NCBI GenBank assembly: GCA_016788785.1
Contig: JAEUSM010000013.1
Coordinates: 1-56,770, forward strand
Source: Candidatus Kapaibacterium sp.
GTDB taxonomy: Bacteria > Bacteroidota > Ignavibacteria > Kapaibacteriales > JAEUSM01
Direction: 5' to 3'
Length of the DNA stretch: 56,770 nucleotides
How positions within the stretch are numbered: the stretch's first letter is position 1; each line of letters starts with the position of its first letter. The notes under the pieces are model-generated. The model was not told where the DNA came from. It was given only the letters and a program-made list of their open reading frames with translations, and ran no database searches. Positions 7,074 through 25,058 of this stretch are shown in pieces. A program made the position numbers and the translations under genes.

Positions 7074-7222
7074 TACCCCAGATTGAAATCGGGGGCTAGA
7101 ATATGGCTCATCCCTACGGGATTACATCCATGGTAGGGGAAGGCCTATGTGTCTGCCCTATTGGATATAGTAAACCCTATTTTTTTACCATAGGGCTTAC
7201 ACCCTATGCTATGATAGTACGC
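7074..7222. repeat. Cluster of palindromic intergenic repeats
   Basis: The gene-free stretch between 6984 and 7340 holds several short palindromes: CCCC-GATT/AATC-GGGG near 7076-7096, a CCCTACGGGA block near 7113, a pair of CCCTA/TAGGG arms near 7170-7200, and CCCTTTCAGGG near 7222. The pattern resembles REP-like repeats of Bacteroidota genomes. It separates the restriction operon from plsY. No reading frame was found in it. Confidence 0.55.
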
Positions 7223-7340
7223 CCTTTCAGGGCTTGACCGTTCAGGTTATGAAATGCAAAAAATCATAACTCACTCTCCCATTGTGGAGTAACGTTTTGC
7301 TATAACTATATGACAACTTTGTTGTCAAAAATTTATTCGA

Positions 7341-12198: not shown

Positions 12199-13308
12199 TT
12201 ACGGTTTCTTTGTACGATTTTGCACAACAGTATGAATCGTATCAATTAGTCCATTGTTGTATGCATCTCCATTCAGTTTCCAAAACATAATACCACCCAA
12301 TTGTTTTTGTAATGCAAATTGTGTTTTTTCTGCAACGGAACGTTTGTCGTCATAGGTTACAAAAAGTTGCAATTGTTTGTTGTAAAGGTATGGTGCTGAT
12401 GCAGTCGAATCCCAAAAGTACTCAAATCCATTACTGCTTGTATAATTTTCTTCAATGACTCTATAAATGACATTTTCTTTGAATTTTCCAGGTCTTCCTA
12501 ATCCATTATCAAGACTATCTACCTCTTTGACAACAAAAGAATAAAAAGCAGCTCCAATAACTATCTTACTGTTCGGAATGCCCATACTATCCAATCTGCG
12601 AACTCCCAAATCAATACTCTCTTCCTGTTTAGGAGATGAATATAACGCCGTGTGATGTCCGGTATGACCTCGCCTATTGGTTGGTAATCCGTATGTCATA
12701 AAATTCACAAAATCTACCAATGGCATCACCTCATTCCATTCTATGGAACGATCTAAAAATTCTTTGAATGAATTTGCATCAAAACAAATTTCCGCTGTAG
12801 GAGGTAATGTTTTTCGCAATTCTTTTATCAATTCCGTAAAATTTTTCTTGTCATCTTCTGAGGCTTTGTGATCCTTATATCCACCGATAACTGGACTTTC
12901 CCAGTCAATATCAATCCCATCAGCTCCATACTCAGATAAAAACTTTTTTACTGATAAAGCAAATTCTGAACGTCCCTTTGCAGTTGAAAAGACATCCGAA
13001 CAGGTCTCACAACCTCCCCAACCACCCAAAGCAACCAGTACTTTCAGATGTGGGTACCGTTTTTTCATAGCAACACATTCTTCCCATGTTTGCCGACTAT
13101 CTTCATTTTTAAACCCTATTGCATTACCATTCAAAAACATAAAACAATAGATAAGATGGGTAAGTTTGTTATAATCGTATTTGGAAACTTCCTTAGTATC
13201 ACCTCGAAAATACCCCACAACCCTAAACGGTGAAGATACATCACGATTTACCTGAGCAAACACACTCAAACTCGAAAGAATAAACAATACTATTAAAAAC
13301 AAACGCAT
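12199..13308 (-). CDS. Secreted glycosyl hydrolase family 18 protein (chitinase-like)
   Basis: A signal peptide (residues 1-18, ending SVFA-Q) sends this 369-residue protein across the inner membrane. The GH18 barrel is clear: LVALGGWGG on strand 3, and the catalytic DxxDxDxE signature D130-G-I-D133-I-D135-W-E137, with E137 the acid/base. It therefore probably cuts chitin, chitodextrin or peptidoglycan-type beta-1,4 links. There is no T9SS tail or carbohydrate-binding module. AGGAG precedes the ATG. The gene starts only 61 bases from the first CRISPR repeat, and its promoter occupies most of that gap. Confidence 0.92.
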   Translation of the reverse strand: MRLFLIVLFILSSLSVFAQVNRDVSSPFRVVGYFRGDTKEVSKYDYNKLTHLIYCFMFLNGNAIGFKNEDSRQTWEECVAMKKRYPHLKVLVALGGWGGCETCSDVFSTAKGRSEFALSVKKFLSEYGADGIDIDWESPVIGGYKDHKASEDDKKNFTELIKELRKTLPPTAEICFDANSFKEFLDRSIEWNEVMPLVDFVNFMTYGLPTNRRGHTGHHTALYSSPKQEESIDLGVRRLDSMGIPNSKIVIGAAFYSFVVKEVDSLDNGLGRPGKFKENVIYRVIEENYTSSNGFEYFWDSTASAPYLYNKQLQLFVTYDDKRSVAEKTQFALQKQLGGIMFWKLNGDAYNNGLIDTIHTVVQNRTKKP

Positions 13309-13333
13309 TCAATCTCCTAATTAATCAATGCAA

Positions 13334-13363
13334 CAAAACTATATCACTACCTTACAACACAAA
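13334..13363 (-). promoter_or_regulatory. Promoter of the GH18-thiamine pyrophosphokinase unit
   Basis: On the minus strand TTTG (13360-13363), an 18-base spacer and TAGTTTTG (13334-13341) match the Bacteroidota promoter consensus. The upstream box ends 6 bases from the first CRISPR repeat, leaving little space for a leader at this end of the array. Confidence 0.65.
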
Positions 13364-13369
13364 TATTTT

Positions 13370-16300
13370 GTTGTGAATAGCTTTCAATTTTGTATTTTTG
13401 TTCTTTGATTCCCAACGGATTACAAATTGTATCAATAGAATTGATTGTTGTGAATAGCTTTCAATTTTGTATTTTTGTTCTTTGATTCCCAACTGACAAT
13501 TGGACAATTGACAACGACGACAAGTTGTGAATAGCTTTCAATTTTGTATTTTTGTTCTTTGATTCCCAACTCTTTAACCAATTCCATTTGGTGCAATTTA
13601 GTTGTGAATAGCTTTCAATTTTGTATTTTTGTTCTTTGATTCCCAACAAAAAATACAAATTGATTGGGAAAGAGTAAGTTGTGAATAGCTTTCAATTTAG
13701 TATTTTTGTTCTTTGATTCCCAACTCTTCTTTGAACATAGCAGTATTACGTTCGTTGTGAATAGCTTTCAATTTAGTATTTTTGTTCTTTGATTCCCAAC
13801 TTATCGATTGGAGTTCCGTTCAAGTCGATTGTTGTGAATAGCTTTCAATTTAGTATTTTTGTTCTTTGATTCCCAACTAGAGTTACTTGCGAATGACCCA
13901 GCGACAGGTTGTGAATAGCTTTCAATTTAGTATTTTTGTTCTTTGATTCCCAACAATCGACAGTATTTGTATCGGTAACGGTCAGTTGTGAATAGCTTTC
14001 AATTTAGTATTTTTGTTCTTTGATTCCCAACTTATTACAACTTCAAACATTACATTAAGTGGTTGTGAATAGCTTTCAATTTAGTATTTTTGTTCTTTGA
14101 TTCCCAACACCATCTGAAAACAACCCTACTATTTTACCGTTGTGAATAGCTTTCAATTTAGTATTTTTGTTCTTTGATTCCCAACTACTCGGTTTGAATG
14201 TAGTTCACTTCGTCTGTTGTGAATAGCTTTCAATTTAGTATTTTTGTTCTTTGATTCCCAACTTTCGTGTTGACCGTTACGACGACGTTCAAGTTGTGAA
14301 TAGCTTTCAATTTAGTATTTTTGTTCTTTGATTCCCAACTTGCGTTTGACCTTGCCCAAGTTTTCTTTGGTTGTGAATAGCTTTCAATTTAGTATTTTTG
14401 TTCTTTGATTCCCAACACGGTGATAGGATTCAATTCGGAGCATTTGGTTGTGAATAGCTTTCAATTTAGTATTTTTGTTCTTTGATTCCCAACAGTAACA
14501 AGGACATCAACTTCAGGGACAGGTTGTGAATAGCTTTCAATTTAGTATTTTTGTTCTTTGATTCCCAACTGACAGTATCAAAAGGAATCCACCTCCGTAG
14601 TTGTGAATAGCTTTCAATTTAGTATTTTTGTTCTTTGATTCCCAACTAAAACAAAACTAAGTAACCCAATGGTAGAGTTGTGAATAGCTTTCAATTTAGT
14701 ATTTTTGTTCTTTGATTCCCAACTCTTCCGATAATTCTGCTTCTTCGTCCATGGTTGTGAATAGCTTTCAATTTAGTATTTTTGTTCTTTGATTCCCAAC
14801 TCGCCGTCTATTTCTTGTGCTGGTTGGTACGTTGTGAATAGCTTTCAATTTAGTATTTTTGTTCTTTGATTCCCAACTTTGCACTTTGAACTCTTAAAAT
14901 TGTTTTGGTTGTGAATAGCTTTCAATTTAGTATTTTTGTTCTTTGATTCCCAACAAATACGTTTTTGCGTGGTAGACGAGAAATGTTGTGAATAGCTTTC
15001 AATTTAGTATTTTTGTTCTTTGATTCCCAACATCATTATCGAGAATTACAAAGAAAAGAAGGTTGTGAATAGCTTTCAATTTAGTATTTTTGTTCTTTGA
15101 TTCCCAACTTTATAATCTTGACAATAAAGTCCAAACGCGTTGTGAATAGCTTTCAATTTAGTATTTTTGTTCTTTGATTCCCAACATGGTATTCGCAAAG
15201 ACATTGATAAGATTGTTGTGAATAGCTTTCAATTTAGTATTTTTGTTCTTTGATTCCCAACAAATGATAAGCAATTTAGAGTCTGCAGTTAGTTGTGAAT
15301 AGCTTTCAATTTAGTATTTTTGTTCTTTGATTCCCAACAGACAACAACGCCGCCTTTTCCGATTCGCTGTTGTGAATAGCTTTCAATTTAGTATTTTTGT
15401 TCTTTGATTCCCAACCCACAACCCCTTAAGAATAAATTGATATAAGTTGTGAATAGCTTTCAATTTAGTATTTTTGTTCTTTGATTCCCAACCAAGAAAT
15501 ATTGACTTGCAACAATACTACAGTTGTGAATAGCTTTCAATTTAGTATTTTTGTTCTTTGATTCCCAACTAATTTTCCGAGACAAATCGTATCAATTTCG
15601 TTGTGAATAGCTTTCAATTTAGTATTTTTGTTCTTTGATTCCCAACACGGTGATAGGATTCAATTCGGAGCTTTTGGTTGTGAATAGCTTTCAATTTAGT
15701 ATTTTTGTTCTTTGATTCCCAACGCTTTAGGATTAGCATTTGCTGGTGTATTGTTGTGAATAGCTTTCAATTTAGTATTTTTGTTCTTTGATTCCCAACC
15801 TGACATCGCAATTGCGTGTTTGGGTCAGTTGTGAATAGCTTTCAATTTAGTATTTTTGTTCTTTGATTCCCAACTCCTCCGATTGCTGTTTTGATTGCTT
15901 CTAGTTGTGAATAGCTTTCAATTTAGTATTTTTGTTCTTTGATTCCCAACTCGGTGCAATTTCTTTTGACATCGCATTGTGTTGTGAATAGCTTTCAATT
16001 TAGTATTTTTGTTCTTTGATTCCCAACAGTACTTTATTTCTAATTACCAAATTTTCAGTTGTGAATAGCTTTCAATTTAGTATTTTTGTTCTTTGATTCC
16101 CAACTAGTAAAAAACAATCAGAGACAATCCATAGTTGTGAATAGCTTTCAATTTAGTATTTTTGTTCTTTGATTCCCAACTTTGTTGTTTACCGCCTTGC
16201 AAAGCATTCTGTTGTGAATAGCTTTCAATTTAGTATTTTTGTTCTTTGATTCCCAACTGTTTTAACTTCTTTTATGATGGAGATTGTGTTGTGAATAGCT

Positions 16301-18562
16301 TTCAATTTAGTATTTTTGTTCTTTGATTCCCAACTACATCAAAAGTACATTCATTTTTGCCGTTGTTGTGAATAGCTTTCAATTTAGTATTTTTGTTCTT
16401 TGATTCCCAACATTCATCTACGAAAATATTGTCATAATCTTGTTGTGAATAGCTTTCAATTTAGTATTTTTGTTCTTTGATTCCCAACTTAATTTGTTCT
16501 ATTAAGGCTTCTTCTTCGGTTGTGAATAGCTTTCAATTTAGTATTTTTGTTCTTTGATTCCCAACATTCAGAATGACCTTGATTTTTGTACATTGGTTGT
16601 GAATAGCTTTCAATTTAGTATTTTTGTTCTTTGATTCCCAACCAGTTTCTTTTTTTAAAATTACTTGATTGCGTTGTGAATAGCTTTCAATTTAGTATTT
16701 TTGTTCTTTGATTCCCAACAATCATCAATATACGTATACATTTACAACGGTTGTGAATAGCTTTCAATTTAGTATTTTTGTTCTTTGATTCCCAACTAGT
16801 TGATTTAAATCAAAAATCATTTTAAAGTTGTGAATAGCTTTCAATTTAGTATTTTTGTTCTTTGATTCCCAACTAAAGATAATGTTTAAAGTATATGACG
16901 TAGTTGTGAATAGCTTTCAATTTAGTATTTTTGTTCTTTGATTCCCAACAGAAATCGTTTCAACTTATATAGGTTTATTGTTGTGAATAGCTTTCAATTT
17001 AGTATTTTTGTTCTTTGATTCCCAACTATTTCTTTACTTTACTTGACTTGTATTCAGTTGTGAATAGCTTTCAATTTAGTATTTTTGTTCTTTGATTCCC
17101 AACATACGTTTAAATATGCTTGACAAATTGCAGTTGTGAATAGCTTTCAATTTAGTATTTTTGTTCTTTGATTCCCAACTAGGTTCAATTTCAGTATAAA
17201 CATTCAATAGTTGTGAATAGCTTTCAATTTAGTATTTTTGTTCTTTGATTCCCAACTCCCAAAGCACAACCATAGTTACACGACATGTTGTGAATAGCTT
17301 TCAATTTAGTATTTTTGTTCTTTGATTCCCAACATAAAAACGTTATAATACATTACATTTGAAGTTGTGAATAGCTTTCAATTTAGTATTTTTGTTCTTT
17401 GATTCCCAACTTAATTTGTTCTATTAAGGCTTCTTCTTCGGTTGTGAATAGCTTTCAATTTAGTATTTTTGTTCTTTGATTCCCAACTTACAGGCAATGG
17501 GAACTCCAGCAGTACCAGTTGTGAATAGCTTTCAATTTAGTATTTTTGTTCTTTGATTCCCAACTTTACGTTCATTCCCTTTATTCAATGCTTCGTTGTG
17601 AATAGCTTTCAATTTAGTATTTTTGTTCTTTGATTCCCAACGTTAAAAAATGACAATGAAAATAGACAAAGGTTGTGAATAGCTTTCAATTTAGTATTTT
17701 TGTTCTTTGATTCCCAACGGGCTGATTCCAATCAATGGATTATCATTTGTTGTGAATAGCTTTCAATTTAGTATTTTTGTTCTTTGATTCCCAACTTTTT
17801 GCTATTAGTTGACGATTTTTCAACGGTTGTGAATAGCTTTCAATTTAGTATTTTTGTTCTTTGATTCCCAACAATATTTCCCTTTGTCTTTATTTGTCTA
17901 ATGTTGTGAATAGCTTTCAATTTAGTATTTTTGTTCTTTGATTCCCAACATATTGTTAGATTTTGACAATGGAATTAAGTTGTGAATAGCTTTCAATTTA
18001 GTATTTTTGTTCTTTGATTCCCAACCGCAACAGACGTTGCACAACAAGCGGTGGGTTGTGAATAGCTTTCAATTTAGTATTTTTGTTCTTTGATTCCCAA
18101 CGTCGCATTTCGGAAGTGTACGAATTGCAGCGTTGTGAATAGCTTTCAATTTAGTATTTTTGTTCTTTGATTCCCAACTACGCGTTGGGTAATTGGGCGA
18201 ATGTGACCGTTGTGAATAGCTTTCAATTTAGTATTTTTGTTCTTTGATTCCCAACTTATCATTAAAGGAAAAGGCATTACGATGAGTTGTGAATAGCTTT
18301 CAATTTAGTATTTTTGTTCTTTGATTCCCAACACCAGACCTAAAGGTCCAACGTGACAACAGTTGTGAATAGCTTTCAATTTAGTATTTTTGTTCTTTGA
18401 TTCCCAACGAAAACATTGTGAGCAATTCAGAAGAGGTCGTTGTGAATAGCTTTCAATTTAGTATTTTTGTTCTTTGATTCCCAACTCGTTTTTAAATCTG
18501 TCATTTCTTTTGTCTGTTGTGAATAGCTTTCAATTTAGTATTTTTGTTCTTTGATTCCCAAC
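13370..18562 (+). CRISPR. Type II-C CRISPR array, 68 repeats of 47 bases, 67 spacers
   Basis: I walked every unit: 68 repeats of exactly 47 bases begin with GTTGTGAATAGCTTTC and end with TTTGATTCCCAAC. There are 55 spacers of 30 bases, eleven of 29 and one of 28 (15800-15827). Repeats 1-4 (13370-13647) have T at repeat position 22; repeats 5-68 have A; no other difference was seen. The ends form an imperfect inverted pair (GTTG..AAT / ATT..CAAC). The strand is set by the tracrRNA: its anti-repeat pairs with repeat positions 1-15 of the plus strand, so crRNAs are read rightward, opposite to cas9-cas1-cas2. Spacers 41 and 53 are identical; spacers 14 and 30 differ at one base. Confidence 0.99.
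13371..13400 (+). promoter_or_regulatory. Promoter embedded in each CRISPR repeat (first copy shown)
   Basis: Within the repeat, TTG at positions 2-4, a 19-base spacer and TATTTTTG at positions 24-31 fit the Bacteroidota TTG-N17-23-TAnnTTTG promoter. Transcription would start near repeat position 38, about ten bases before the spacer, on the crRNA strand. The position-22 variant of repeats 1-4 lies just outside TATTTTTG, so all 68 copies keep the elements. Promoters inside repeats are known for type II-C arrays of Neisseria and Campylobacter; here the elements follow the local sigma factor. Confidence 0.6.
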
Positions 18563-18606
18563 ATACCCCCTTTGGGAATAGGGTGTATGGGGACTCAAAA
18601 ATCGAA

Positions 18607-18678
18607 AATCTGAAAACAAAAAAAAGACCCTCTATGTAGTGAAGAACTATGCAGAGGGTCTTTTTTCGTTTTCAGATT
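18607..18678. terminator. Long bidirectional terminator between array and cas2
   Basis: An extended palindrome pairs AATCTGAAAAC (18607-18617) with GTTTTCAGATT (18668-18678) and AGACCCTCT with AGAGGGTCT, with A runs before and T runs after the GC core. It can stop crRNA transcripts from the left and cas transcripts from the right (cas2 stops at 18687). The bases between the last repeat and this hairpin (18563-18606) contain an ATACCCC/GGTGTAT pair and no gene. Confidence 0.88.
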
Positions 18679-18686
18679 GGAAGAAT

Positions 18687-19034
18687 TTAGAACATTTCTA
18701 ATTGCATTGATGGCATATCGAGTTCGACTTTCTTTTTGGAATGAAATACTTCCATCATTCCAAATTGTTTGTCGGTAATTTGCAAAATTCCAATTTTGCC
18801 CAATGGTGGTAATGCCTTTTTGACACGTTTGATGTGGATTTCAGCATTTTCTCTACTGGTGGAAAACCGCATATAGATAGAAAATTGGAACATAATAAAA
18901 CCATCATTGAGTAATTTTTTACGGAATGTGGCAGCATTCTTTCGGTCTTTTTTTGTTTCCGTTGGCAAATCGAATAGCACCATAACCCACATAATTCTGT
19001 ACTCATTTAATCGAGAAAAACGGTCAGTGTTCAT
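18687..19034 (-). CDS. cas2: CRISPR-associated protein Cas2
   Basis: Cas2 forms the dimer that bridges two Cas1 dimers in the spacer-integration complex. The 115-residue protein has the ferredoxin-like start [20 protein letters not shown] (residues 15-34) with the conserved Asp22, and the strand [15 protein letters not shown] chose the ATG at 19034 because it gives the family length and overlaps the end of cas1 by 11 bases, as expected for coupled translation. The frame stays open to 19211, but the extra 59 residues are the cas1 coding region in another frame. Confidence 0.96.
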
Positions 19035-19920
19035 AGAGCGGAAAGTTGATTTTTCGTGCAGTTCCAGCAAAACACTCAACGAGTGAGGAAGTGGTTCTGC
19101 TGAGAGCAATTTGTAATGGACGCTGTACATTGCCAATGGTAACATCCAGCGTTGGAATACACAGCAATTGTTTTTTGATTCTTGGGGTAAGCGTTTCAGT
19201 ATCTTCTTCACTGGTCACAATATCCCACACCACCATATCAACAAAGGGGCGATATGGCTCCATAATATCATCAGCCAAGCAATAGGCATTATATTTGTTT
19301 TTGTGGAAAATTCCAAGCGTTGGCAAAAGCCCCGAGCCAACCAATGCACGTGCAGCAATACCACGCAAAATGGCATAACCATAATTGAGTAAATTGTTTG
19401 GTGTTTCTCCATCTGGGTCGCGAGTAAAGCTCTCGATGGGAAAAAGCGATTTCCAATAGATAGCTGCAGCTTGGGCTTCGTTGTTTTTGTTGTCTCCTGA
19501 TTGCACTGTTTCGGCAAGGGTCAAAAGTGCGTCATGGTCTTGCCCACGCTCAGCCAAATGCATTGCTTGATTGGTAATTTTGGCAATGACAGTTTGTTGC
19601 CAAAGGTTTTTTTTGAGCGGAAGCGAGGCATTGATTTGGAATTTATAGCGTTCGGATTGTTCGGTATGCCCCACCATAGGCAACATCAACCCAATGGGAA
19701 GATGTTGCCCATCGCAATGGATAAGAGCGACATTATTTTCGGCAAGTCGATGAAGCAAACCATTGGTAATGGTGATTTGCTGATGTTCCAATACCACCAA
19801 CCCAATATCCTCAATTGGAATGGTTTTTTGTTCATCAGTATCAGGATAGCTCACGACCAATTGTTGATGCTTCGTAGACAAATACGACGGTTGCTCAAAA
19901 AACAAAGTTCGTTTTATCAT
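19024..19920 (-). CDS. cas1: CRISPR-associated integrase Cas1 (type II)
   Basis: Cas1 catalyses insertion of new spacers. The 298-residue protein shows an N-terminal beta domain and a C-terminal helical domain with metal ligands E148 (NNEAQ), H206 ([10 protein letters not shown]) and E221 in the DDIMEPYRP motif. Length and motifs match type II Cas1. Its ATG overlaps the cas9 stop codon (ATGA), so the two are translationally coupled. With cas9 and cas2 and no csn2 or cas4, the locus is subtype II-C. Confidence 0.98.
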
Positions 19921-22900
19921 ATCGATTTTGGAAATGATAGATTACCTAATCGGTCTACAATTAGTTTGATAGAAATAGTTCTAATCGAGATTGAAGATTG
20001 AATATCTTTATCCCAAAGAAGACTTTCAATATTAGCACCACCAGAACTATTTATTTCCTTGTCAACTATCAATTTTGCAAGTACAAGAGGAGCAAAGTAA
20101 ATTCTTGATGTTGTAAACTTTACAACTTTATACAATCTTTTCAAAAGCAGATTTTTATTTGACAAATCAATCACTTCTGAAGGATGTAGCCCTGATTTGA
20201 GCTTTTTCTGTTCTTCTGGAGTAGGAACATAGACAATATCACCAACTTGATAGATATGCAATGTCTGACCTGTTTTGTGTTCAAAGAGTTGTTCACCACA
20301 GAGCTTCCTTCTTACAACTTCATAAGAAGATAGAGTAGAAAAACCAAATCTATCTTTTGTATTTGGATCCTCATAAAACACAAAATAGGCATTTGAACCT
20401 GACTCCACTAAGGTATGTCTTAAAGGAATTTTAATTCCTACATCCTCTTTGATAGTAACCTTACGAATACGACGACCTGCCTTTTTGTCAAGAGCTTCTA
20501 AGCCTTCGTTAGAAAAGGCAAGTTTTGGATTATCATCATAGGATTTGAGATGCTCTAATAGCAATTGCGGAATGGTTTTCTTTTTACCATCAGCAACTTC
20601 TCTATTGTCTGCATACGGAATTTTGGCTATTTTTTTTGCGTCAAAGCTATCATTCAACGGAACACGTTTTGCGGAAAATGGCTTGAGAGTAGCAACACGG
20701 TAGGAGGTAACGACCTCACCGTTGCCATCAAGCAATGGATTTTCCGAAAGATATTCCACTAATGCTTTTTTGATTTTTTTGTAATTCGCTGTATCCTCTG
20801 GATTGAACGTTGGGAAGGTATCGCTCAAAATCTTTTTGACATCTGCACGAAGTTTTTGGTCGTAGATATACGGCGTAACTTTCTGATTAGGTGTGTCTTG
20901 AGCCAAAGACCGATAGAATTGCAATTCAAAGAGTTTCACAAAATCAGAATCTTTTTTGATAGTAACCTCTTCTAATTGTTTTACCAAGACCTTGCCCAAC
21001 GGATTTTCAGAAAAGAGTGGTTTCCTGACCGCTAACCAACGATAATGAGGCTTTTGGTCTATTAACACCTTTTTGAGCGTTCCGTCACCAGCATAGCGTT
21101 CTATTTTGTTCACAGGCTTAGAATAGACCTTGTTGTTTTGTCTGAAAGTAACTACAGTTTCTTCCAATGCTTTTTTCACATCGTGAACAAAGCTGGGCCA
21201 TGGGAATCGTAGGTCTTTGGAGTTCTCGTTGAAAAGCGAATCTTTGATACGAATTTTTTCCTTGATTTGGCTATCTTCACTTGCATTTAGCGTATTGTAA
21301 TAGCGAATATGTTCGATGGTAGTACACGCAATGATAAGAGCATCAAGAGCATGATGGCGATGGTCGAGTCGTTTCAAATCGATATCTGGTTTTTTATCAC
21401 CGTCTTTTTCCTTTGCAAGCAATGGGCGAATAGTGATGTCAACATCATTCCGATCGCGTTCGTTTTGAGTAACTAAGGTAACACTTTCTTGTGCTTGTAA
21501 CCGTTCAAAACGAGGAAGTAAGAGTTTTTTCCACACTTTAGCTAATCCCCAAGACTTTTTCAATTCGCTGGTAACGGCACCACCTGCAAAGACAATTCCT
21601 CCTTGTTCATCAACTGTTTGAGCGTCTTTTTTACCACGTGCAACTGGGTAAAGCAATTGACTAATTTTTTTGGTTATGTATCGAGTATCGTTTAATTGAC
21701 GGTTAATGAAATCCTCAGGAATCTCAAGAGCCAACAAATTACGAAGTTTTCCACGTTGTGTACGAAAATGCTGTTTACAATGAGCAACGTATTCGTTGTA
21801 AGTCAAAAGTTCGATACGCTGATTATTATGTTCACAATACCCCTTACTTTTTTCGATAAAAAGAGCAGCTAATTCATTTCCTTTTGCTTTGTTGACTTCA
21901 CGCTCAGCAATGATAAGATTGTTCATCGAATCATTTTTGATTTTCGCACGAGGAAGAATATGCTCTACTTCGTATTTGGCAGTGAACAAAGCACTTAAAG
22001 GAATTACACGACCAGTATAGGGAGAACGACATTCTTGCGAAAGCCACAAAGCAAACTTTTTGTATTCACTTTCTTTTGGAATACGTTCTTTTTTTGCTCG
22101 TTCTTCTAACGCTTTAAATGTATAGGCTGAATGTGATTGCCAAATGGAGAACTTTTTAATATCAATGGGATTGTCAGGATTTGGTTTTGTTTCAAAGAAT
22201 GAATACACAATTTCACCATCGTCAGTAAGTTGCTCGAATCCAGAATTGAGCAATTCATAAAGCATATTTTTGATTTTGATACGCGACTGTTCATTCTCAG
22301 AAACAGATTTGGTCAATTGTTCACGCTCTTTAGCATTCTTTTTCAGTTCTCTTGCCAATTCGATATGAATTTCGTCAATGTGTCCAAATTGTTTCCAAAT
22401 ATCTCGTACTAAAAATAGGGTTTCACGAGTAATTTGTTCAACAATAGGATTATTGAGGCTATTATTCGGAAGTTTTTTGAGAATATCCTTTTCAAAATCA
22501 TCAACGGACTCGTATTTACGAAAATCTTCTTTTTCACTGTGTCGATCGTACACTGCATAGCACGCTTGGTAGGTGTTCAATCCGGCTGGTGAAGTAACCC
22601 CAACAAAACTTTTATACATTGCTTTTGTAACTTCATCTGATGCGAGATAGGCAATAGATTTTGAAGTGTGTTTACCGTCGGAAAGAGTTGCAATGATATC
22701 AATTACTTTATCATAAGCATCTTTAATTACAGCATCTTTAGACCAGAACTTTCCAACTCTCATAAGTGGTAACAACTTCTTAATAGCTTTAGTAGAATAG
22801 GCTGCATACGAATTGGATGTATCAATTTCCGGAGCTTTGGAAATAGCCTTAGCAACAGATTCTGGAAGATTGAACTGAATAGATTTTGCTTTACCTCTTC

Positions 22901-24653
22901 TATTTTGGTCATTGGTAAGAGCATTGAAAATTGCACTTTGAGATTTCTCTTCGTCAGTTAGACTAATTGAATAAGAAATAGACCAAAGCTTGAAAAGATG
23001 CTCTTCACTTTGCAGTAATCGTTCGCCCTCTTCAGCAAAATCATTTTTTTCAAAAATAGATCTAAAATACGCTTTTGTTTCGTTCCCTTGTAACTTTTTA
23101 TCTTCTTGGAAGAACATATTTATGCGAAAATCATCTTTGTTGATTTGCTCATGTTTTGGTTTGCCAAGATTGATAACATTTATAACATCCGTAAGAGATA
23201 TTTGCTTTTTGGAATCAAACTTTTCAAAAAGTCGTTCTTTAACCTCAGCATTGATATAATGTTTTGTAACATCTTGGTCACGGAAAATGCGTGTACGAAT
23301 CTCACCAGTTTTGGTATCAACCACTTCTCGCTCTACCTCATTTTGAAAAACTTTGAGATTATGAATGTTTTGCCAAATTCTGAACTCTTGAAAGTACGGA
23401 TTAGAACGAGGTGCTACTTTAAGACCAAAGATATTTCCATCTTTGTCTTTATGCATTTCATATTGACATTCCGCTATGGATTTCCTTTGCGACTTGAGTT
23501 CACGTTGATAGTAGATAATATCCTCGCAAATGATATGAAACAACCCTCGTGAAAGAAACTCTTTTTCTTTTGCTCCTTGTAATTTAGATTGTGTGCTATA
23601 GAGTGCATCCGCAATTGATTTGAGTATAGCTTTGTTAGTTTCAAGTTTCTGTAATTCAGGATTTAATTCACATTGTTTATTCCAAATAGCTGTTAGTTCT
23701 TCTTTGTATTTTTTTCTATACACAGCATATTGGCGAATTTTAAAGTCAAGACCTTCTCTTTGTGAATCCACCAAATTATCAAAGAAATATTCACCGGGGT
23801 GTTTATTACCCATTTTTTGATCTAATGCTGTAACACTTAAAGCCCAATCAGCTTCACCAGGAATTTGTGGTTTTAATTGCTTTCCAACTACTCCATCTTT
23901 CACAGGCCATGTTAGAAGAAATGTAAATTCCTTGTTCACCCAATCAGGTTTTGTAGTCTTTTTTTCTTCCCAAGGCATAAGAACGCAGCCAGCTGGTAGG
24001 CCTTCGATTGGATATGGAGTTACTTCATAAAACCCTTCTTTCTCTTCTTTTTTTTCGACTGATTGAATTGTTAAGGTTTTAACCAACTTTATTTCAGAAA
24101 CTGATTCATCTTTCAAATCCTTACGAGAACTTTTGAAACCTCTTCGTTGATTCATCATATAGAAAATTCGAGCTAACTCAAAGTAAGACAATCGTTCTGT
24201 TAAACCTTTTTTACGAAGGTAATATACTACCCAATCTTCCGAAATAGCACCACCCAACAATGCTTTTGCTTCATCAATTGTTTCAGAGTCAATTGGCATA
24301 TAATTACTAATTTTGAAATCATTTACAATTTGAGTTTCTTTTTTGAAGTTAGTAGGAAAATCAATGCTTATCCAACCTAAAATTTTTAAAACGGTTAATA
24401 ACCTTTCACGACGTAGTTTATAACGTTGTTTTAATCTTCGAGTACCTCGAGAAAGTCTACGAGCTGCTGCTTTCGATTCAATTGATACACCAGCTTCCCA
24501 TTTGTTGAGATTTTCCGTATCGACAGGGACAATACGAGATCCCATCCACTCAATAGAGCCTTTGGAACCAAAATCTTCCAACATATCTGGGAGAGAAATC
24601 ACTGCAGCACCAATGGAATTGGTACCTACATCAAGACCTAATATTCTTTTCAT
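19917..24653 (-). CDS. cas9: CRISPR-associated endonuclease Cas9 (subtype II-C, large form)
   Basis: RNA-guided DNA endonuclease acting with crRNA and tracrRNA. All catalytic parts are intact: RuvC-I LGLDVGTNSIG with D8, an Arg-rich bridge helix near residues 63-85 (RRLSRGTRRLKQRYKLRRERL), RuvC-II IHIELAREL with E765, HNH VEHILP with H898 and N912, and RuvC-III HHALDAL with H1101 and D1104. At 1578 residues it is much longer than the approximately 1000-1100 of Neisseria-type II-C Cas9, but in line with the big Cas9 of Bacteroidota. The extra length lies in the recognition lobe (between residues 100 and 740) and in a long C-terminal PAM-reading part after 1150. I saw no fused foreign domain. 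No clear promoter or ribosome site precedes its ATG. Confidence 0.98.
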   Translation of the reverse strand: MKRILGLDVGTNSIGAAVISLPDMLEDFGSKGSIEWMGSRIVPVDTENLNKWEAGVSIESKAAARRLSRGTRRLKQRYKLRRERLLTVLKILGWISIDFPTNFKKETQIVNDFKISNYMPIDSETIDEAKALLGGAISEDWVVYYLRKKGLTERLSYFELARIFYMMNQRRGFKSSRKDLKDESVSEIKLVKTLTIQSVEKKEEKEGFYEVTPYPIEGLPAGCVLMPWEEKKTTKPDWVNKEFTFLLTWPVKDGVVGKQLKPQIPGEADWALSVTALDQKMGNKHPGEYFFDNLVDSQREGLDFKIRQYAVYRKKYKEELTAIWNKQCELNPELQKLETNKAILKSIADALYSTQSKLQGAKEKEFLSRGLFHIICEDIIYYQRELKSQRKSIAECQYEMHKDKDGNIFGLKVAPRSNPYFQEFRIWQNIHNLKVFQNEVEREVVDTKTGEIRTRIFRDQDVTKHYINAEVKERLFEKFDSKKQISLTDVINVINLGKPKHEQINKDDFRINMFFQEDKKLQGNETKAYFRSIFEKNDFAEEGERLLQSEEHLFKLWSISYSISLTDEEKSQSAIFNALTNDQNRRGKAKSIQFNLPESVAKAISKAPEIDTSNSYAAYSTKAIKKLLPLMRVGKFWSKDAVIKDAYDKVIDIIATLSDGKHTSKSIAYLASDEVTKAMYKSFVGVTSPAGLNTYQACYAVYDRHSEKEDFRKYESVDDFEKDILKKLPNNSLNNPIVEQITRETLFLVRDIWKQFGHIDEIHIELARELKKNAKEREQLTKSVSENEQSRIKIKNMLYELLNSGFEQLTDDGEIVYSFFETKPNPDNPIDIKKFSIWQSHSAYTFKALEERAKKERIPKESEYKKFALWLSQECRSPYTGRVIPLSALFTAKYEVEHILPRAKIKNDSMNNLIIAEREVNKAKGNELAALFIEKSKGYCEHNNQRIELLTYNEYVAHCKQHFRTQRGKLRNLLALEIPEDFINRQLNDTRYITKKISQLLYPVARGKKDAQTVDEQGGIVFAGGAVTSELKKSWGLAKVWKKLLLPRFERLQAQESVTLVTQNERDRNDVDITIRPLLAKEKDGDKKPDIDLKRLDHRHHALDALIIACTTIEHIRYYNTLNASEDSQIKEKIRIKDSLFNENSKDLRFPWPSFVHDVKKALEETVVTFRQNNKVYSKPVNKIERYAGDGTLKKVLIDQKPHYRWLAVRKPLFSENPLGKVLVKQLEEVTIKKDSDFVKLFELQFYRSLAQDTPNQKVTPYIYDQKLRADVKKILSDTFPTFNPEDTANYKKIKKALVEYLSENPLLDGNGEVVTSYRVATLKPFSAKRVPLNDSFDAKKIAKIPYADNREVADGKKKTIPQLLLEHLKSYDDNPKLAFSNEGLEALDKKAGRRIRKVTIKEDVGIKIPLRHTLVESGSNAYFVFYEDPNTKDRFGFSTLSSYEVVRRKLCGEQLFEHKTGQTLHIYQVGDIVYVPTPEEQKKLKSGLHPSEVIDLSNKNLLLKRLYKVVKFTTSRIYFAPLVLAKLIVDKEINSSGGANIESLLWDKDIQSSISIRTISIKLIVDRLGNLSFPKSI

Positions 24654-24938: not shown

Positions 24939-24969
24939 TTGGAAATGAAAAAACTTCTTCGTAGTTTTG
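24939..24969 (+). promoter_or_regulatory. tracrRNA promoter
   Basis: TTG (24939-24941), a 20-base spacer and TAGTTTTG (24962-24969) fit the Bacteroidota promoter. The predicted start is near 24976, just inside the anti-repeat, so the tracrRNA would begin with its pairing arm. The layout parallels the promoter inside the CRISPR repeats. Confidence 0.65.
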
Positions 24970-24973
24970 TAAC

Positions 24974-25058
24974 GAAGCTATTCACAATAAGGATTATTCC
25001 GTAGTGAAGTGTAACTTCAACGAGTTTTTGCCCTTGTACTTTAACAGGGGCTTTTTTT
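24974..25058 (+). ncRNA. tracrRNA
   Basis: The anti-repeat GAAGCTATTCACAAT (24974-24988) pairs with repeat positions 1-15 without any bulge (13 Watson-Crick pairs, two G-U). It is followed by a small nexus hairpin (GGA/TCC near 24991-25000), a six-base-pair hairpin TGAAGT/ACTTCA (25005-25019), and a terminator hairpin. This order is that of type II-C tracrRNAs. The RNA is read away from cas9, about 320 bases upstream of the cas9 start. Length about 85 bases. Confidence 0.92.
25030..25058 (+). terminator. tracrRNA terminator
   Basis: The stem GCCCTTGT (25030-25037) pairs with ACAGGGGC (25044-25051) across a six-base loop and is followed by seven T residues. It ends the tracrRNA 27 bases before the stop codon of the convergent biotinyl protein gene. 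Confidence 0.92.

Follow-up and report, generated by a model that had tools for sequence, protein, structure and literature searches.

Promoters embedded in the repeats of clustered regularly interspaced short palindromic repeat (CRISPR) arrays are already known as an idea from other bacteria. They have been proven for the type II-C repeats of Campylobacter jejuni, where transcription begins within the spacer, at position 5 (PMC3656092), have been described in those of Neisseria meningitidis according to the passages that cite that work (in PMC7038990), and are suspected in Clostridium cellulolyticum. Within the Bacteroidota, a TTG alone has been proposed as a repeat-encoded promoter in Flavobacterium columnare (Hoikkala et al., 2021; PMC8092290) and Flavobacterium psychrophilum (2023; PMC10309648), so that the first-pass annotation of the DNA considered here, which named Neisseria and Campylobacter as the known cases, was right but incomplete. 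This article concerns a stretch of 56,770 nucleotides (the window; contig JAEUSM010000013.1, positions 1 to 56,770) from Candidatus Kapaibacterium sp., whose genome comprises 2.97 Mb in 18 contigs. A search of the assembly for 16S rRNA returned none; the host shares its phylum with Flavobacterium and lies outside the class of that genus. The window carries a type II-C CRISPR-Cas9 locus with a 47-nt repeat that very probably also serves as a full promoter for the primary sigma factor of the Bacteroidota.

The repeat reads GTTGTGAATAGCTTTCAATTT[A/T]GTATTTTTGTTCTTTGATTCCCAAC, and its copies are separated by spacers that are mostly 30 nt long (n = 55), the others being of 29 nt (n = 11) or 28 nt (n = 1). 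Exactly as first annotated, all 68 copies carry TTG at positions 2-4 and TATTTTTG at positions 24-31 with 19 nt in between, and the sole variation, at position 22, lies outside these elements, T being confined to copies 1-4. TAnnTTTG, the -7 pattern of the Bacteroidota primary sigma factor (sigma-ABfr), is thus present in 68 of 68 repeats, and the TTG at a gap of 19 supplies three of the four bases of its -33 pattern TTTG, the first base being G. Over the whole array, TAnnTTTG occurs 69 times on the plus strand (68 of them within repeats) versus twice on the minus strand. The plus strand is also that of the trans-activating CRISPR RNA (tracrRNA) and its anti-repeat, which identifies it as the strand of the CRISPR RNA (crRNA), as had been supposed, and means that the array runs toward cas2. 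The array is therefore oriented toward the cas genes, with the variant repeats at its upstream end; judging from the polarity of related arrays, the T at position 22 may mark the old, leader-distal end.

The same arrangement is found in the host's own promoters. In a sample of about 1.66 Mb, taken in 20-kb stretches and yielding 484 upstream regions, no XXnnXXXX pattern for which two or more occurrences were expected was as enriched as TAnnTTTG, which was present 193 times where a third-order Markov model predicts 89.6 (z = 10.9). Most occurrences lie 20-100 nt ahead of gene starts, and in tandem intergenic regions they are biased toward the sense strand (89 versus 33). A TTG precedes them most often at gaps of 19 (7.2%) and 20 (10.5%), against a background of 2.6%, and outside the array the combination TTG-N19/20-TAnnTTTG occurs 177 times in 3.31 M strand-positions of host DNA. 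TAnnTAAT, which represents a TATAAT-type core, showed no enrichment upstream of host genes and ranked 983rd. The host pattern is the same as the consensus of Bacteroides fragilis and Bacteroides thetaiotaomicron, with TAnnTTTG at -7 and TTTG at -33 (PMC7366714), and the RpoD-like factor of the host is short (286 aa) and, by inspection, of the Bacteroidota type. The annotation of the repeat element as a Bacteroidota-type promoter is thereby upheld in both sequence and gap.

The tracrRNA genes of related loci provide an internal control, and at the present locus the same type of promoter stands before the tracrRNA. Confident anti-repeats were found in 67 relatives' loci with 65 distinct upstream regions, and 40 of these 65 have TAnnTTTG 8-26 nt before the anti-repeat, where 1.9% would be expected per locus and a control window of equal width had none. 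Gaps of 19-20 to a preceding TTG again dominate (20 instances). A -7 profile trained on these tracrRNA promoters gives the repeats 6.8 bits versus 1.5 in shuffles (standard deviation of the mean 0.36). Furthermore, an exact box in the repeat is associated with an exact box before the tracrRNA (23/3 versus 12/17, Fisher p = 0.0006), an association to which shared descent contributes.

The element recurs in the repeats of other Bacteroidota. Regions surrounding Cas9 matches in Bacteroidota genomes (60 stretches), together with 80 named loci, gave 113 arrays that were detected without reference to the motif; 79 of these have long repeats, comprising 73 distinct repeats and 42 families (similarity between 3' parts below 75%). 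In its exact form, TAnnTTTG recurs more than any other gapped hexamer and is present in 20 of the 42 families versus 1.5 in shuffles (maximum 7), and in 17 it lies at a gap of 17-24 from a TTG (null 0.26). With the relaxed form TAnnTT[TAC][GA] at the same gaps, the count rises to 33 families against a null of 2.1 (maximum 7), with a modal gap of 19. The last two bases of the box vary across families, which have TTTG, TTTA, TTAG or TTCG. Conservation of the box in fixed columns was considered and rejected, as a motif-blind alignment of long repeats has its conserved columns at 1-18 and 43-47 and no strongly conserved columns at the box, whose distance from the repeat start varies by up to 7 nt. 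Floating within a tolerated spacing is behaviour that would be expected of a promoter element. The family-wide rule proposed in the first-pass annotation therefore stands as a recurrent element far above shuffles, although not as one of fixed spacing, of constant last bases or of universal occurrence; similarly, the TATCTTTG to which it referred is real in 47-nt Bacteroides and Prevotella repeats but is not always at the same place.

Shorter repeats present a mixed picture. Several 36-nt repeats from the host's order have TAATTTTG, TAGTTTTG or TAGATTTG at one place, and two others have GATCTTTG; a full box is missing from further 36-nt repeats, whose ends read TAGATT, TACATT or GATATT. For the TAGATT and TACATT types, the box may extend into the spacer, by analogy with Campylobacter. 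Two observations may be recorded separately: three related 36-nt repeats of the host's order (loci L057, L058 and L103) vary mainly at the two free positions of TAnnTTTG (TAATTTTG, TAGTTTTG and TAGATTTG), and the 36-nt repeats with TAGATT or TACATT ends at loci L044-L049, L052 and L100 have TTG at 9-11 and TA at 31, the gap again being 19.

The oldest repeats of related arrays provide a further view of what is retained. Alterations affect the first repeat of 45 of 85 arrays and the last repeat of 3 of 98. Where the first repeat is partial, the box is still present in 26 of 32 cases, with most breakpoints at positions 4-20; this count is only indicative, because in 10 of 82 arrays shifted positions also gave a control score of at least 10, and some of these may be genuine copies of the repeat. 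This retention agrees with a report that the extra first repeat of II-C arrays is found mutated and was suggested to need to keep its promoter (PMC12080349). Often only half of the oldest repeat is left, the pairing half having been lost and the promoter half being intact (loci L045, L047, L063, L072, L145, L200, L206, L207 and others).

Taken as a mechanism, this anatomy would divide the repeat between two functions. Positions 1-15 would pair with the tracrRNA and form the 3' end of the upstream crRNA, while the -33 TTG and the -7 TATTTTTG would launch the RNA of the downstream spacer, so that each virus-derived spacer is probably separately readable. The box ends 16 nt before the spacer, and extrapolation from it places the predicted start at about positions 36-40, in keeping with the roughly ten bases before the spacer given in the first-pass annotation; about 8-11 nt of repeat would then be left ahead of the spacer. 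New spacers would enter on the cas2 side, at the downstream end of the 5.2-kb array, and without internal promoters the newest of the 67 would lie some 5 kb from any start. The newest spacer would therefore be expressed from repeat-borne promoters, the gap before the array having no recognisable promoter. A repeat unit of 77 bp is approximately one polymerase footprint; initiations at neighbouring promoters spaced every 77 bp may interfere with one another, and thus equal expression of all spacers is not to be assumed. A wider proposition, toward which we lean, is that Bacteroidota II-C repeats in general have two parts, one that pairs with the tracrRNA and a promoter half, the box of which follows the sigma consensus of the phylum, drifts within the spacing that the sigma factor tolerates and parallels the tracrRNA promoter of the same locus. 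Under this proposition the oldest repeat would decay to a promoter-only half that fires the first spacer without making a useless crRNA, and in long repeats the start would lie about ten bases before the spacer, unlike that of Campylobacter.

Several considerations weigh against a promoter in each repeat. The argument for per-repeat transcription in this host is made from sequence, the -33 element reads GTTG rather than TTTG, and the TTG by itself proves little, because the start of the repeat is already constrained by pairing with the tracrRNA. Nine of the 42 long-repeat families have not even the relaxed box at a gap of 17-24, several 36-nt families have no box and many 36-nt repeats no full one, and the families have common ancestry, so that their counts are partly dependent on one another. 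Variation within arrays is not significantly lower in the box than in the other unpaired part of the repeat (3/204 versus 30/755, p = 0.058). Eroded first repeats are usually without the -33 TTG, which is found at a gap of 17-22 in 3 of 15. On the other side, both halves of a II-C array split by an insertion sequence in F. psychrophilum are transcribed (PMC10309648), which counts in favour of repeat promoters.

An alternative that we regard as unlikely is that the box is kept as a signal for integration by Cas1-Cas2, with or without Cas9, its likeness to a promoter being incidental or secondary. The box does lie in the half of the repeat that adjoins the leader-side integration point, and the repeat ends (1-7 and 43-47) are among the most conserved columns, as integration would need; however, an integration ruler would not be expected to float by up to 7 nt from the repeat start, nor to be retained in the oldest repeat, where integration no longer takes place, and the same box and TTG gap precede tracrRNA genes and host genes. 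Slightly more doubtful still is the possibility that one long pre-crRNA is made from an external promoter to the left of repeat 1, the repeat elements being weak or silent. A single pre-crRNA is the rule in most CRISPR types, and a study of a II-C system in Riemerella saw no repeat promoter and proposed leader promoters (PMC5006608), but the predictor used there (BDGP Neural Network) was not made for Bacteroidota promoters, and a sigma-70 scan of the present array was likewise blind to the element, returning 19 sites, with no enrichment over the 22.6 in shuffles. Moreover, a search of the 61-bp gap left of the array found no plus-strand TAnnTTTG, and the neighbouring gene faces away with a promoter of its own. 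It is very unlikely that a role in the crRNA-tracrRNA duplex or in an RNase III site accounts for retention of the box: the anti-repeats of some relatives do pair up to position 24, as far as the comparison extended, but that of this locus covers positions 1-15 only, and pairing of the box over 53 loci is no more than chance would give (0.42, versus 0.99 for positions 1-15). Chance likeness in an AT-rich repeat is the least credible, since even in a T-rich host of 33% GC the observed frequency of the TTG/TAnnTTTG pair predicts about 0.002 matches per 47-mer, and the cross-family enrichment is far above shuffles of the same repeats.

The features of the locus are collected in Table 1.

Table 1. 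Coordinates of features at the II-C locus, numbered from the first base of the window.
Feature	Position	Strand	Remarks
Type II-C CRISPR array	13370..18562	+	68 repeats x 47 nt, 67 spacers; crRNA strand set by anti-repeat
-33-type TTG, first repeat	13371..13373	+	Identical offset in 68 copies; gap 19, as in host and tracrRNA modes (19-20)
-7-type TATTTTTG, first repeat	13393..13400	+	Identical offset in 68 copies
Repeat position 22 = T	13391, 13468, 13545, 13622 (repeats 1-4)	+	A in every later copy; sole repeat variation
Gap left of array	13309..13369	.	61 bp; minus-strand TAGTTTTG at 13334-13341 faces chitinase-like gene
Chitinase (ChiD)-like gene	12199..13308	-	Transcribed away from array; match under the family's curated cut-off
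Leader-side gap, last repeat to cas2	18563..18686	.	Strong symmetric hairpin with A/T tails at 18620-18667
cas2	18687..18992	-	TIGR01573; open reading frame open to 19211
cas1, type II	19024..19920	-	TIGR03639, 306 bits
cas9	19917..24653	-	1578 aa; TIGR01865, 372 bits
tracrRNA promoter TTG-N20-TAGTTTTG	24939..24969	+	-33 at 24939-24941, -7 at 24962-24969; ends 4 nt before anti-repeat
Anti-repeat GAAGCTATTCACAAT	24974..24988	+	Pairing confined to repeat positions 1-15
tracrRNA terminator hairpin and T tract	25030..25058	+	Sequence evidence

The gene content is that of type II-C, as cas9, a type II cas1 and cas2 are the only genes from the array to the next gene, with neither csn2 nor cas4 among them, and a putative tracrRNA with an anti-repeat lies near cas9. 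The start of cas2 is placed near 18992 because the TIGR01573 match begins at residue 74. The hairpin in the leader-side gap lies between convergent units and, as predicted, would be able to terminate both the array (+) and the cas (-) transcripts. Among the spacers, numbers 14 and 30 differ by one base. Numbers 41 and 53, despite their separation by 12 units, have the same sequence, which suggests repeated acquisition from one target or rearrangement of the array. The Cas9 of this host, at 1578 aa, is found with a 47-nt repeat, whereas those in other genomes of its order are of about 1050-1170 aa and accompany 36-nt repeats; Cas9 size and repeat length suggest a possible origin of the locus in another class. 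Elsewhere in the window, an Acido-Lenti-1 RNA (Rfam, 49 bits) lies at 7189-7234 (+) between two minus-strand open reading frames, in a genome of the phylum Bacteroidota. Two repeat-like regions elsewhere in the genome were set aside: one on contig C6 near 225.3 kb, with an 87-bp period, is not CRISPR-array-like, and one on contig C12 near 71,040 (L257), with at least six tandem copies at a 67-bp period (TTATGTGACGGTTATGTGAT...), is not obviously CRISPR.

In gut Bacteroidota and in pathogens of fish and poultry, crRNA expression from Cas9 systems is mostly unmapped, and published accounts conflict on whether Bacteroidota repeats contain promoters. The promoter assignment and the matching tracrRNA promoter predict where crRNAs should start and offer a sequence rule for array direction in the phylum. 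The assignment would also account for immediate expression of a spacer newly inserted at the distal end of an array of 67, and it gives a view, from sequence alone, of one repeat under the two demands of RNA pairing and transcription. With respect to the open-access literature, what is new is a full promoter assignment (-33 and -7) for a long-repeat system, the phylum-scale statistics, the match to the tracrRNA promoter and a start expected within the repeat.

Of the described systems, those of F. columnare and F. psychrophilum share with this locus the phylum, the convergent layout and transcription toward the leader, the read support for crRNA in F. columnare being thin (8 reads; PMC8092290); unlike the present repeat, most of the 36-nt Flavobacteriaceae-type repeats sampled end in GATATT and have no TAnnTTTG. 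CRISPR1 of Riemerella anatipestifer is similar in its 47-nt repeat, its cas9-cas1-cas2 genes and its 16-nt anti-repeat, but its authors report repeats without a promoter (PMC5006608); the present result suggests that their predictor may have missed a Bacteroidota promoter. The 47-nt repeat of Prevotella intermedia, in reverse complement GTTGTGATTAGCTTTAAAATTAGTATCTTTG..., has TTG at 2-4 and TATCTTTG at 24-31, in the same register as here, and the available passages of its description make no mention of a repeat promoter (PMC5608340). The C. jejuni and N. meningitidis systems likewise have only cas9, cas1 and cas2, an array directed toward the cas genes and a repeat promoter in the host's own consensus (GGTAAAAT in C. 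jejuni). In these systems, however, the -10 box is formed by the last bases of the repeat, and in C. jejuni the start falls in the spacer, whereas in the present repeat 16 nt follow the -7 box and the predicted start lies within the repeat itself.

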